Source of the DNA: Henriciella sp. AS95
Lineage (GTDB): Bacteria; Pseudomonadota; Alphaproteobacteria; Caulobacterales; Hyphomonadaceae
DNA: 64,000 nucleotides
Assembly: GCF_038900055.1 (NCBI RefSeq)
Contig: NZ_JBBMQM010000001.1
Location: forward strand, 682,001-746,000
Direction of reading: 5' to 3'
In this document: one piece after another, positions 28,967-33,712 of the stretch
Layout: the number at the start of each line of letters is the position of its first letter
How positions within the stretch are numbered: the first letter of the stretch is position 1
Program-made: the position numbers and the translations under genes
Notes under the pieces: generated by a model
The model's input: only the letters and a program-made list of their open reading frames with translations
The model's database searches: none
What the model was told of the DNA's origin: nothing

Positions 28967-29085
28967 ATCCGAGGGGCGCGTCTGGAAGCGCTGAGATGAG
29001 GCCGTTCCGCCTCAGCACCCTTAGAACCTGATCCGGCGGGCCAAAGCATCGTGCTTGGAGGTCCCAAACCGGCGTAGGAACGGAG
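28967..29085 (+). ncRNA. TPP riboswitch (THI element)
   Basis: The conserved pieces occur in order: GAGGGGCGC, GCGCTGAGATGAGGC, the P3 partner GCCTCAGCACCC, TTAGAACCTGATCCGG, then AAACCGGCGTAGGAACGGA. Outer stem TCCG (28968-28971) can pair with CGGA (29081-29084). The P5 loop holds an extra hairpin of about 28 bases (29038-29066, with AAGCA/TGCTT and GGG/CCC stems). The ribosome binding sequence GGAG (29082-29085) of the next gene is at the end of the outer stem, so TPP binding would directly hide it. It controls a transcript reaching thiC, about 1 kb downstream. Confidence 0.92.
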
Positions 29086-29091
29086 CAAGAC

Positions 29092-29514
29092 TTGGGCGCC
29101 AGCGTCACCCTTCCGAATATCCCGGCCGCCGTGAAAGCGGTCTATGACGCATACCCGAAGCCCGCGCGCACTCAGCTCCTGAAACTGCGTGACCTCGTCT
29201 TCGAGACCGCCGCCAGCTTGCCCGAAACCGGCCCGATTACAGAGACGCTGAAATGGGGCGAGCCGTCCTATCTGAACAAGGCTTGCACGACGATCCGCCT
29301 CGCCTGGTCACCCAAACGCCCGGACGCTATCGGCCTCTTCGTCAATTGCCAGACGACCCTGCTCGATGAGTGGCGCACGCACTATTCCGATACCCTTGAC
29401 CTCATCGGCAACCGCGAAATCCGCCTGTCCCTTGGCGCGCCGCTCCCCCTCGACACTCTCCGCCACTGCATCGCCATGGCGCTCACCTACAAGACGCGGA
29501 AGGGCGGGGTATGA
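29092..29514 (+). CDS. DUF1801 domain protein
   Basis: A 140-residue protein starting with TTG, 6 bases after GGAG at the edge of the TPP riboswitch. The DUF1801/YdhG-like core is recognised by LLKLRDLVFETAA, ETLKWGEPSYL and the C-terminal RHCIAMALTYKTRK. Biochemical function of the family is not established. Because its translation start is embedded in the aptamer end, it should be the gene most directly controlled by TPP. It has no known role in thiamine synthesis. Confidence 0.8.
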   Translation: MGASVTLPNIPAAVKAVYDAYPKPARTQLLKLRDLVFETAASLPETGPITETLKWGEPSYLNKACTTIRLAWSPKRPDAIGLFVNCQTTLLDEWRTHYSDTLDLIGNREIRLSLGAPLPLDTLRHCIAMALTYKTRKGGV

Positions 29515-29574
29515 CCAGAAGCGTATTTCGTGAGTCCTTCGCTGTAGGTCGGTGGATTGTCCAGAGGATAGGCA

Positions 29575-30054
29575 ATGACTGAAACTCATGACATCGAGGA
29601 GCCGCTTTCCGCCGACGAACTGCTGATGCATGCATTAAAGAAAAGTGCGCGTGGGGGGCACGCGCTTACTGTGCTCGATATTATCGACCAAAAGGTCTCC
29701 GCACTGTTTACATTCACCAGCATTCTGGTGGGTGCTACGCTTCTCGTAGCTTCGCAGCCGGGCCCCTACCACGCTGTCGAGCTTGGCGGCCTTTCGCTGT
29801 CGCAGGCGCTCTTCGTATATGCCGGGATGGCTTGCGCCATCTTGAGCGCCATACTCTCAATGACCTGTCTATGGGTCATTGATCTGTTCGCTATTTGCCG
29901 ACGCGCTATAGATGTGCGGTCCGCTATTGAGAATGTCCAGAAGGTGACGCGTTCTCGTATGCTTCGTTACCGTTTCAGCTGGGCGCTAACACTGATCACA
30001 CTCGTCCTGGTGACGATCGCCGTCACGCTTTCCATCGTGGAGTATCCCTCATGA
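29575..30054 (+). CDS. unknown three-helix inner-membrane protein
   Basis: A 159-residue protein. Membrane segments are at about 42-60, 76-106 and 134-154, with a soluble N-terminal 40 residues and a basic loop at 107-133. The start of helix 1, [20 protein letters not shown], recalls the D-x-K-A motif before the first helix of Pycsar-type membrane effectors (DUF5706), but the match is by eye and no cyclase gene is nearby. Its stop overlaps the ATG of thiC by 4 bases. A start at 29575 is preceded by AGAGGA. Confidence 0.68.
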
Positions 30055-31997
30055 ACAAGCCCACCCCCCAATCTGAATTCCAGACCCCCAAAGTCACCAC
30101 CGGCCCGCTGCCTGCCAGCCGCAAGGTCTACACCCATCCCAAGGCCGACCCGAGCCTCAGCGTCCCGCGCCGGATGATCGATCTTCATCCGTCCGCCAAT
30201 GAAGAGCCTGTGCCGGTCTATGACACGTCTGGTCCATATTCCGATCCGTCGGTCACGATCGATGTCGAGAAGGGCCTTGCCCGTCCCCGCACTGACTGGG
30301 TTCTGGAGCGCGGCGGCGTCGAGGAATATGAGGGCCGCGATGTCCGCCCCGAGGATAATGGCGGCGTCAGCGGCAAGCATCTCGCCCGCCAGTTCCCGAC
30401 CCATCACCGCCCCCTCAAGGCCATCGGCTTCGACCCGACGGGCAGTGTCACGCTCAACCCGAAGCGCTCCGACGCTGACCGCGAAGCCAATCGCAAACCC
30501 GTCACCCAGTATGAATTCGCCCGCGCCGGCATCATCACGAAAGAGATGATCTACGTCGCCGAGCGCGAGAATCTCGGCCGTCAGGAAGCGCTCGAAAACG
30601 CGGAGGCGCAGACCGCCCAGGGCGAGTCCTTCGGCGCCGAGATCCCCGCCTTCGTCACCCCGGAATTCGTCCGCGACGAGATCGCCAAAGGCCGCGCCAT
30701 CATCCCGGCCAATATCAACCATGCCGAGCTTGAACCGCAGATCATTGGCCGCAACTTCCTGGTCAAGATCAACGCCAATATCGGCAACTCGGCCGTCACA
30801 TCTTCGGTGGAAGAAGAAGTCGACAAGATGGTCTGGGCGACGCGCTGGGGCGCCGACAATGTCATGGACCTCTCCACGGGCCGCAACATCCACAACACGC
30901 GCGAATGGATCATCCGCAACAGCCCCGTGCCCATCGGCACCGTGCCGATCTACCAGGCGCTGGAAAAGGTGAACGGCGTCGCCGAGGACCTCACCTGGGA
31001 GGTCTATCGCGACACCCTCATCGAGCAGGCCGAGCAGGGCGTGGACTATTTCACCATCCATGCGGGCGTGCGCCTTGCCTATATCCACCTCACCGCCAAG
31101 CGCGTCACGGGCATCGTTTCGCGCGGCGGCTCGATCATGGCGAAGTGGATGCTCGCCCACCACACGGAGAGCTTCCTCTACACCCATTTCGAGGACATCT
31201 GCGACATCATGCGCGCCTATGATGTCTCCTTCAGCCTCGGAGATGGCCTCCGCCCCGGCTCCATCGCGGACGCCAATGACGCGGCCCAGTTCGCAGAGCT
31301 GGAGACACTCGGCGAGCTCACCAAGATCGCCCATGCCAAGGGCTGCCAGGTGATGATCGAGGGGCCGGGCCACGTCCCGATGCACAAGATCAAGATCAAT
31401 ATGGACAAGCAGCTGCGCGAATGCGGCGAGGCGCCTTTCTACACGCTGGGCCCGCTCACCACCGACATCGCGCCCGGCTATGACCACATCACAAGCGGCA
31501 TCGGCGCGGCGATGATCGGCTGGTACGGCACGGCCATGCTCTGCTACGTCACGCCGAAGGAGCATCTCGGCCTGCCAGACCGGAACGACGTGAAAGTCGG
31601 CGTTATCACCTACAAGCTCGCCGCCCACGCCGCAGACCTCGCCAAGGGCCACCCCGCCGCGCAGATCCGCGACGATGCGCTATCCCGCGCCCGGTTCGAG
31701 TTCCGCTGGGAGGACCAGTTCAATCTCTCATTGGACCCGGAAACCGCCCGCGACTATCATGACCAGACCCTGCCCAAAGAAGCCCACAAGGTCGCCCATT
31801 TCTGCTCCATGTGCGGCCCGAAATTCTGCTCCATGAAGATCACGGCAGAGGTGCGGGACTATGCGGCCGGCATGACCGACAATGAGAAGGCCGACCTGGA
31901 GAAACAGGCGAAAGAGGCCGAGGAAGGCATGAAGGCCAAGAGCGCGGAATATGAGGCGATGGGGCGGAAGCTCTATGTGGAGCGGGGAACGAAATGA
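30051..31997 (+). CDS. thiC: phosphomethylpyrimidine synthase
   Basis: A 648-residue radical SAM enzyme converting aminoimidazole ribotide to hydroxymethylpyrimidine phosphate in thiamine synthesis. Features: N-terminal ThiC-associated domain ([16 protein letters not shown]), [20 protein letters not shown], the catalytic barrel, and the C-terminal [11 protein letters not shown] with CxxCxxxxC for the 4Fe-4S cluster. The ATG is within the stop of the preceding membrane gene and the TGA overlaps the ATG of the AIPR gene. Regulation by the TPP riboswitch at 28967 is inferred because no other riboswitch is found closer. No other thi genes are in the window. Confidence 0.97.
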
Positions 31998-33712
31998 GCT
32001 TGGAACTAAAGCGGAGTTTTCTAGAGGATGAGCTAGACCTTTTCTCAGAGGAGGCCGACCTCACGGACGACCTGGCCTTCATGCATTGGTTTTATCGCAG
32101 GCATTTCGACCTTGATGACGAAGATGAGATACCACCTGACGAAATTGTAGACGGATCCGGCGAACGCCAAATCGACCTGTTTCGAATCGACATTGATGAC
32201 ATTGAGCAACGCTCGCACATATGGCTGATCCAAACGAAAACTTCGAAGAGTTTTGGTGCAAATACAGTATCGTTAATGAAGGCCGGACTCGACTTCATCT
32301 TCAAAACTAAACGAAAAAAGGTTCTCGAACTAAAGAACCAAAAGTTTGTCCAAAAGATACTCGAAGCACGCGACGTTATCAAACAGTATGGAAACACAAA
32401 TATCTCTGTTTCGTGCCTGTATGTGACACTTGGGGATGATCAAAACCTACCGGAAGAGGCGCTCGAGAACGCTTCCAATATAATGGATGAGTATGAGTCT
32501 GGAGGCGTGTTTGGGGACTTTGAGTTTAAATTTTGTGGGGTTCACGAACTCGACCGCATTCTTAACATTCGGCGGAACCGGGCCCGAAAGATAAACTTCG
32601 ACCTCCCAATTGCGTATGACGCCAACCGACCCTCAATTATCGAGTTTGAAAGTGCCGGTGTTGGAAGTTTGCTCTGTACTGTCCGAGGAGAAGATTTAGC
32701 AAAGCTTGCTCTAGTTGAGCCTCGCGATGCCGTATTCGATGCCAACGTCCGCGGAAACTTGGGGTTGGGCGGGCGAGTGAACAAAAACATCTACGCCAGT
32801 TCTATCGAGAACGAGCAAGCCAAGTACTTCTGGTTTATGAACAATGGCATCACCATGGTTTGCGATGCATTTAGCATCGTGCGTGATCCAGATTCTCCTA
32901 TGGTTAAGCTCACGAACCTGCAGATTATAAATGGTTGTCAGACCACTTCGTCGATTAGGGCCGCATATGAGGCTGGTGAATTGTCTGAAGATGTGAAGTT
33001 GCAGCTAAAAATTTACCAGTCAAAAGACCGGAGCTTCGTAGACAATGTTGTTGTGGCGACCAACAATCAAAACGCTATCGGCACCCGAGACTTGCATGCG
33101 AATGACGAAATCCAGCTTCTCATCCAGCGGCGCATTGAGGAAGACTATGACTTGTTCTATGAACGAAAGCGAGGCGAAGCGAAGAGCGCGAACGTCCCAA
33201 AGTCTAAAGTCATTAACATGGAGAAGGCTGGGCAAGCATATTTAGCGGTCTTCAAACGCCAGCCAACAATTAGTCGGGCTCAAAAATACAAAGTATATGC
33301 ACCGGAATACTATTCTGAAATATTTGAGAAGGGCAGACCTTCGCAAATTGCTGTTTCTCATGAACTGTACAAATATTCGGAAACGCTTGGGCGGAAAGCG
33401 TACCGTGAACTCGAAGATGATGATCCCCTGAGGAATATTCTAAATTACGGTGTATTCCACATCACGAGAATTATGTGGTGGGTTCTGGAGAAAGAGACAG
33501 ATATTGACACCGCCGATCACGCTTCGCTGATTACAAAGATTAGAAGCGGAACTAAGCGTATCGAAAAAGTCCATGAGCGTGCGACAGACATACTTTTTGA
33601 TATAGTGGATGAAAACAACGAGAGCTTCGTAAATTTGAATAATTACTTCAAGAAAACAGCCTCCCAGCAAGACATAAATAAGCATTTGGTGAAGCTGGAA
33701 AAGGATGACTAG
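31994..33712 (+). CDS. AIPR-family (abortive infection phage resistance) protein
   Basis: A 572-residue protein of the AIPR family, known from abortive phage resistance plasmids and later found in defence islands. Residues 57-82 have the nuclease-like pattern GERQID and [10 protein letters not shown], with Asp 61 and Q-x-K at 80-82 as in PD-(D/E)xK enzymes. The family core motifs are FMNNGITMV at 281-289 and [10 protein letters not shown] at 311-320. Base composition is clearly lower in GC than thiC, suggesting transfer. The ATG overlaps the thiC stop as ATGA, so it is translated from the same mRNA. Direct DNA or RNA cleavage is inference. Confidence 0.9.

Follow-up and report, generated by a model that had tools for sequence, protein, structure and literature searches.

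A probable insertion hot spot for defence-type genes between thiC and a SlyX-like gene in Hyphomonadaceae, occupied by an AIPR gene in Henriciella sp. AS95

In the family Hyphomonadaceae, the DNA between thiC and a SlyX-like gene is, with a probability of about 0.82, a hypervariable hot spot for the insertion of genes acquired by horizontal transfer, often anti-phage ones, and other Caulobacterales probably use the thiC 3' end in the same manner. The window analyzed here is a stretch of 64,000 nucleotides from Henriciella sp. AS95 (contig NZ_JBBMQM010000001.1, positions 682,001 to 746,000), in which the present occupant of the hot spot is an AIPR/AbiU-type gene that overlaps the end of thiC. 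This reading is based on the turnover of content between thiC and slyX, enrichment in defence genes, low GC content, recurrence of AIPR genes at thiC and the presence of displaced thiC 3' fragments. The two anchors and the occupant, in window coordinates, are as follows.

30051-31997, plus strand: thiC, the left anchor (PF01964, 609 bits; NCBIfam thiC equivalogs).
31994-33712, plus strand: complete AIPR/AbiU-type gene of 572 amino acids (PF10592, 141.8 bits; PADLOC AbiU, 225 bits).
34148-34369, plus strand: the right anchor, which we take to be a SlyX-like gene (named by its sequence).

The AIPR gene has a GC content of 46%, versus 63% for thiC, and this foreign look is a sign of transfer. It is the sole open reading frame (ORF) of at least 100 amino acids in the interval of the window, and no recombinase gene is found there.

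A first-pass annotation of the window had called for a comparison of the locus in related genomes, and the same spot indeed holds many different, often defence-type genes. The comparison comprises 81 loci, which are the window and the thiC surroundings from 80 related genomes (two batches of 40; G and L numbers are our handles for genomes and thiC loci). A full SlyX-like gene is found to the right of thiC in 38 loci. The distance from the thiC stop codon to slyX is 1.1 to 7.6 kb in 37 of these 38 intervals, with a median of 2.1 kb over all, and G281 has a near-empty site in which the two genes are 168 bases apart. The GC content of the interval is lower than that of the right flank in 37 of 38 cases (mean, -10.3 points). 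ORFs of 100 or more residues were taken from mechanical calls, which certainly include spurious ones; homologues in another genome's interval were found for 27 of 90 interval ORFs, compared with 144 of 218 for right-flank ORFs (6 kb; Fisher p = 9e-9). Among 14 genomes of the same genus, the 300 bases ahead of thiC match the partner in 112 of 182 ordered pairs, whereas the 300 bases past the thiC stop do so in only 4 of 182, and similarity breaks off at the stop codon itself. The locus has the features of a core defence hotspot in the sense of PMC10250203, with the same conserved flanks (38 of 81 loci), variable content and many unrelated putative defence systems.

The defence content of the interval is well above that of its surroundings. 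At E <= 1e-6, the 90 interval ORFs draw matches from 107 PADLOC models, and 90 ORFs taken at random from the 218 right-flank ORFs draw none; the figure of 107 counts models rather than proteins, several of which can match one protein, and many are from HamB and AAA ATPases. Cargo proteins chosen by eye for single scans include SduA (Shedu) in G005 (368 bits), Hachiman in G030 (HamB, 267 bits; HamA, Pfam 37.7), DarTG in G324 (DarG, 200 bits; DarT, Pfam 54), DndB in G022 (Pfam 101) and a second AIPR protein in G063 (AbiU, 571 bits). An OLD-like AAA/TOPRIM protein is found in G310 (79 bits), an AHJR-like endonuclease in G018, FRG in G023, FRG/PDC-S15 in G316, PDC-M36A in G099, DUF488 in G021 and a SEC-C protein in G009. 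DUF2971 proteins occur in G013 and G020, that of G020 being under the Pfam cut-off. G012 carries a dCTP deaminase of the AvcD type (511 bits). Eight of 20 cargo proteins scanned in two Pfam rounds have no match or only weak ATPase-like matches, so much of the cargo lacks a known family.

AIPR genes recur at thiC 3' ends. Across 299 Caulobacterales genomes, PF10592 has 26 matches in 24 genomes, and four of the 26 are no more than 1.4 kb away from the 3' end of thiC or a fragment of that end, where about 0.02 would be expected (2 x 1.4 kb in roughly 3.5 Mb, times 26). These four are in the window genome (G000), G063, G174 and G207. The AIPR gene of G063 starts 542 bases past thiC, behind another gene. 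In G174, which belongs to another family, an AIPR gene of 45% GC converges on thiC at a distance of 89 bases, and in G207, from a third family, the AIPR contig terminates in a thiC 3' fragment, with the main thiC match on a separate contig. The AIPR proteins of G063 and G174 are 21 to 24% identical to that of the window, which indicates separate acquisitions. An ordinary single acquisition, in which one transferred AIPR gene came to lie behind thiC by chance, would explain the low GC content and the patchy distribution of the family (24 of 299 genomes of the order). However, it would account neither for the turnover of content, nor for the defence enrichment relative to the flank control, nor for four of 26 AIPR genes at thiC against the 0.02 expected; a chance neighborhood was rejected on these grounds and is extremely unlikely.

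The match of the AIPR protein to PF10592 covers profile positions 1-256 of 308 (cut-off, 25 bits), and the PADLOC AbiU model spans residues 71-565. Residues D53, G54, D61, Q80 and K82 are invariant in six AIPR sequences of the order. In a set of 42 sequences that includes relatives from phage contigs, 13 columns are invariant, among them D61, N283 N284 G285 and N313 G314 Q316 T317, and K82 is found in at least 90%. AIPR relatives are frequent on phage contigs (111 stretches confirmed, 80 kept). A search of genome contigs with the AIPR protein found no relative. PD-(D/E)xK nucleases carry acidic residues and an (E/Q)xK element on neighboring strands. An AlphaFold model of the AIPR protein (mean predicted local distance difference test score, 87; predicted template modeling score, 0.65) places the segment from D61 to K82 on two neighboring strands (62-68 and 73-81), and a resemblance of the N-terminus (D53, D61, Q80, K82) to a PD-(D/E)xK nuclease is suggested by this model. 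When PDB sequences were searched with the AIPR profile, no match had an E value under 0.21. Perhaps the protein acts as a nuclease-type effector of abortive infection. Both PF10592 and AbiU models match the protein, as would be expected of the AbiU1/AIPR abortive-infection family, which, according to Makarova 2012 (PMC3506569), is linked to restriction-modification and has an N-terminal HEPN domain. In contrast to that description, the window AIPR gene stands alone and its N-terminus has the PD-(D/E)xK-like motif.

Fragments of the thiC 3' end are found past the cargo in 12 of the 81 loci (16 fragments); G010, G009 and G328 were excluded because their matches are of 30 to 48 bases and to G036 only. 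The aligned fragments start -62 to -293 bases from the thiC stop, a spread of 230 bases, and nine of 16 end at most 10 bases from the stop, with edges that derive from local alignments and are uncertain as true edges. The fragments of G004, G019, G082 and G262, and one of four in G012, are 92 to 94% identical to the thiC end of another species and score far lower against the intact thiC end of their own genome. The variable starts and these five foreign-like fragments suggest homologous capture at thiC over a fixed att site. Incoming DNA with a foreign thiC 3' end and cargo would recombine with the resident thiC through its last 60 to 300 bases, thiC would remain whole, the cargo would be placed at or near its stop codon, and the old thiC 3' end would sometimes be left beyond the cargo. 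Within the 3' third of thiC, G019 is identical to G009 over 243 bp (permutation test, global p <= 0.003). The intervals of G012, G002 and G022 contain fragments of the SlyX-like gene, and that of G014 has a complete second copy.

The right-hand junction of the window includes one shared element.

33711-33825, plus strand: right-junction sequence, an element of 114 bases common to G010, G014, G018 and G022, where it lies behind other cargo.

The element is present in a single copy in its own genome and is thus not a high-copy repeat. The first bases of the element were considered as an ancestral thiC stop, but no genome was found in which the element directly follows thiC. Inverted repeats occur between the AIPR gene and the SlyX-like gene (33860-33990), including half of a hairpin sequence that relatives share to the right of their cargo. 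RAYT-like genes, recognized by eye, and sequences like repetitive extragenic palindromes are found at the right cargo edge in G010 and G022 (L071:10454-10963, L066:8825-9376).

The junctions bear on another explanation, namely site-specific integration by an element whose integrase or transposase targets and restores the thiC 3' end, and whose enzyme is lost or encoded elsewhere. Tn7 at glmS and islands at tRNA ends are models for such behavior. Cargo that begins directly past the thiC stop and displaced 3' fragments are what this mechanism would produce, and the common starting base of right-hand homology, seen in three comparisons, would be better explained by a lost targeting enzyme than by homologous capture. 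However, the fragment starts are spread over 230 bases, where a single crossover site would give one position. Also, no integrase over the cut-off is present among the Pfam-scanned cargo; a TniB match in G014 is weak (16.6 bits; cut-off, 22.4). Site-specific integration is considered unlikely, though by no means negligible.

Several observations weigh against the hot-spot reading or its proposed mechanism. The intact thiC end of the same genome fits about equally well, better or only slightly worse for 11 of the 16 fragments, and no thiC fragment lies behind the cargo in the window. G032, G061 and G225 have their first cargo gene in common and so are not independent cases. The recombination test takes no account of uneven conservation along thiC, and of 91 pairs a single one passed it. 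The common starting base of right-hand homology (window versus G010, G014 and G018) would fit a lost targeting element, and RAYT-like transposase genes are, by eye, present in G010 and G022. In 43 of the 81 loci, no full SlyX-like gene is found to the right of thiC within the fetched stretch, and the interval counts are of the other 38 loci. The best nuclease-like folds for the AIPR model are nonsignificant (HamA, E 0.48; MspJI, E 0.74). Finally, the AIPR-thiC link was not found outside the order. In a survey of the class, PF10592 has 33 matches in 28 of 385 genomes, thiC was found in 11 of the 27 others, and none of these 11 has an AIPR gene near thiC on the same stretch, several pairs being on different contigs; the linkage was therefore rejected as a class-wide feature.

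In the window, thiC is preceded by a thiamine pyrophosphate (TPP) riboswitch and two small genes.

28962-29097, plus strand: TPP riboswitch aptamer (RF00059, 53.6 bits, E 8.9e-9; Rfam gathering score, 54.3).
29092-29514, plus strand: DUF1801 gene (PF08818, 29.6 bits; cut-off, 27.2), with a TTG start about 12 bases past the aptamer core.
29575-30054, plus strand: gene for a hydrophobic protein of 159 amino acids without a family.

The RF00059 match is 0.7 bits under the gathering score and is consequently unlisted at that threshold, and matches at or above it occur in 15 of 20 thiC loci of relatives. The hydrophobic gene matches no family in PADLOC, NCBIfam or PHROGs, and its Pfam matches are two sub-threshold ones (best E, 0.23). 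Besides itself, it has one weak relative (E 2.8e-4) among 299 Caulobacterales genomes, and no relative was found in a plasmid collection. Its three helices are a reading by eye and not the output of a predictor, and it is preceded by its own AGAGGA, which by eye resembles a ribosome site.

The first-pass annotation had described one transcription unit, and its single strand for all five elements as well as the ATGA overlaps at 30051-30054 (hydrophobic gene and thiC) and 31994-31997 (thiC and AIPR) were confirmed from the sequence and from Rfam, Pfam, PADLOC and NCBIfam matches. No plus-strand terminator-like site was found in 28800-34200. The same region has five promoter-like sites (2.3 expected, standard deviation 1.4, from shuffles). 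Cotranscription of the AIPR gene with thiC is plausible from this arrangement. A likely ribosome site of the DUF1801 gene is, by eye, on the 3' side of the aptamer. In insert-free loci, a hairpin over the thiC ribosome site precedes thiC; the motif was found by motif search in 14 of 81 loci and is missing in the window. In the window, thiC and AIPR would rely on coupling or read-through. Read-through and translational coupling would carry expression from thiC into AIPR, and any thiamine effect by these routes would be passive. The fold of the leader (28955-29125) is not unusually stable (z 0.99).

The first-pass annotation also considered a defence gene under vitamin control. As a function, this would be immunity regulated by thiamine, in which AIPR was selected into the TPP riboswitch regulon and defence rises when thiamine pyrophosphate is low. 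The aptamer, the shared strand, the ATGA overlaps and the lack of a plus-strand terminator-like site in the region are all compatible with this, and other cargo also begins at or near the thiC stop: G013 (-3), G003 (+1), G018 (-3 or 0), G017 (-16), G060 (+3) and G047 (+6). However, the first cargo ORF is on the plus strand in 22 of 38 intervals and on the minus strand in 14, with two lacking an ORF (p = 0.24), although the call is debatable for at least G018, where a plus ORF of 119 residues begins at the stop codon. Because this orientation is unbiased, thiamine control of cargo is no general property of the slot. The placing of AIPR also differs elsewhere, in that G174 and G207 converge on thiC and that of G063 follows another gene. 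Moreover, in the window the aptamer lies over the start of the DUF1801 gene, thiC lacks the hairpin, and the hydrophobic gene has its own AGAGGA. Vitamin control as a selected function was rejected on the orientation counts and is very unlikely; thiamine control of AIPR is probably incidental. The other proposal of the first-pass annotation, that thiC is an expressed carrier for a transferred gene, comes close to the result of the comparison, but the stronger fact is that insertion behind thiC is recurrent.

The gap between the aptamer and thiC is itself a variable place. A pattern search places the aptamer in 71 of 81 loci, and at least 300 bases separate it from thiC in 41 of these 71, although with so coarse a pattern a few of the positions are doubtful; on this basis the gap is read as a second, slower slot. 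Similar-looking small proteins of membrane type are, by eye, found between aptamer and thiC in different genera (L064:1622-2203, L082:14962-15549, L084:13318-13854, L076:14596-15195). Upstream of the aptamer, 28000-28899 contains a 2OG-Fe(II) oxygenase gene (PF13640, 55% GC) next to an arylamine N-acetyltransferase gene, and several relatives have other genes or nothing in this further variable place. Shortly past the hot spot is a 6S RNA (RF00013, 56.9 bits; 38416-38571).

Beyond Caulobacterales, the habit is patchy. A drop in GC content of at least 6 points behind thiC was found in three of six loci in Caulobacterales, three of 31 in Hyphomicrobiales, none of eight in Rhodobacterales and two of 10 others, these being the 55 of 80 named loci for which a name was entered and the flank was long enough. 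With Bradyrhizobium, the hot spot may extend to another order. Low-GC genes are found behind thiC in the Bradyrhizobium loci L102 and L103 (SIR2_2 by coordinates; ATPase-like by eye); the SIR2_2 assignment is from a match whose coordinates fit the gene behind thiC in Bradyrhizobium iriomotense SZCCT0346. In Brevundimonas sp. G8 (65% GC), a reverse transcriptase gene of 46% GC lies behind thiC (L158:11068-12687; RVT_1, 61.6 bits) and possibly serves in defence. In a more far-reaching scheme, the thiC 3' end would serve, without any integrase, as a dedicated capture site across Caulobacterales, and perhaps Bradyrhizobium, for cassette-like immune genes that are expressed most when thiamine is short. 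Incoming DNA would then consist of its own thiC tail and a defence gene, thiC would be rebuilt with the foreign tail, and the cargo would be coupled to the TPP riboswitch operon. This scheme is distinctly doubtful.

The hot spot has relatives among known systems. The core defence hotspots cDHS1 and cDHS2 of Pseudomonas aeruginosa (medians of 26 kb and 6 kb; PMC10250203) likewise have fixed core-gene flanks, diverse defence systems, GC content under that of the chromosome and often no detectable mobile gene. Unlike these, the thiC slot has a median of 2.1 kb, often holds one gene or system, extends across genera, follows a biosynthetic gene in a riboswitch operon, and has scars in the form of thiC 3' fragments. 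Oliveira 2017 (PMC5635113) described hotspots without mobile elements and recombination at flanking core genes; that comparison was within species, whereas here it is between species and the flanking gene has displaced 3' ends. Small slots of about 1 to 5 kb, fast turnover of defence genes and two conserved flanks are shared with the antiviral hotspots of P2 and P4 (Rousset 2022, PMC9122126), which, unlike the thiC slot between chromosomal genes, sit on prophages and satellites. Searches of open-access literature found no match joining TPP riboswitch and abortive infection, or Hyphomonadaceae, anti-phage and hotspot. Searches on thiC or TPP riboswitches with defence or insertion, and on Caulobacterales defence hotspots, gave no title on the thiC-slyX locus, and thiC as a gene was not found in the available parts of PMC10121019, PMC10214605 and PMC12421898. 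The thiC-slyX locus is best seen as a new defence hot spot, compact and unusual in its scars, and as a variant of the hot spots flanked by core genes (PMC10250203, PMC5635113).

The locus also carries a warning that gene order is not the same as regulation, because a defence gene in a riboswitch operon may owe its place to recombination. The displaced thiC 3' ends make it directly testable how defence genes move without a visible mobile element, which is usually only inferred. Moreover, a slot this small, with sharp bounds and a single conserved gene ahead of it, is a convenient place in which to look for anti-phage genes not yet described.

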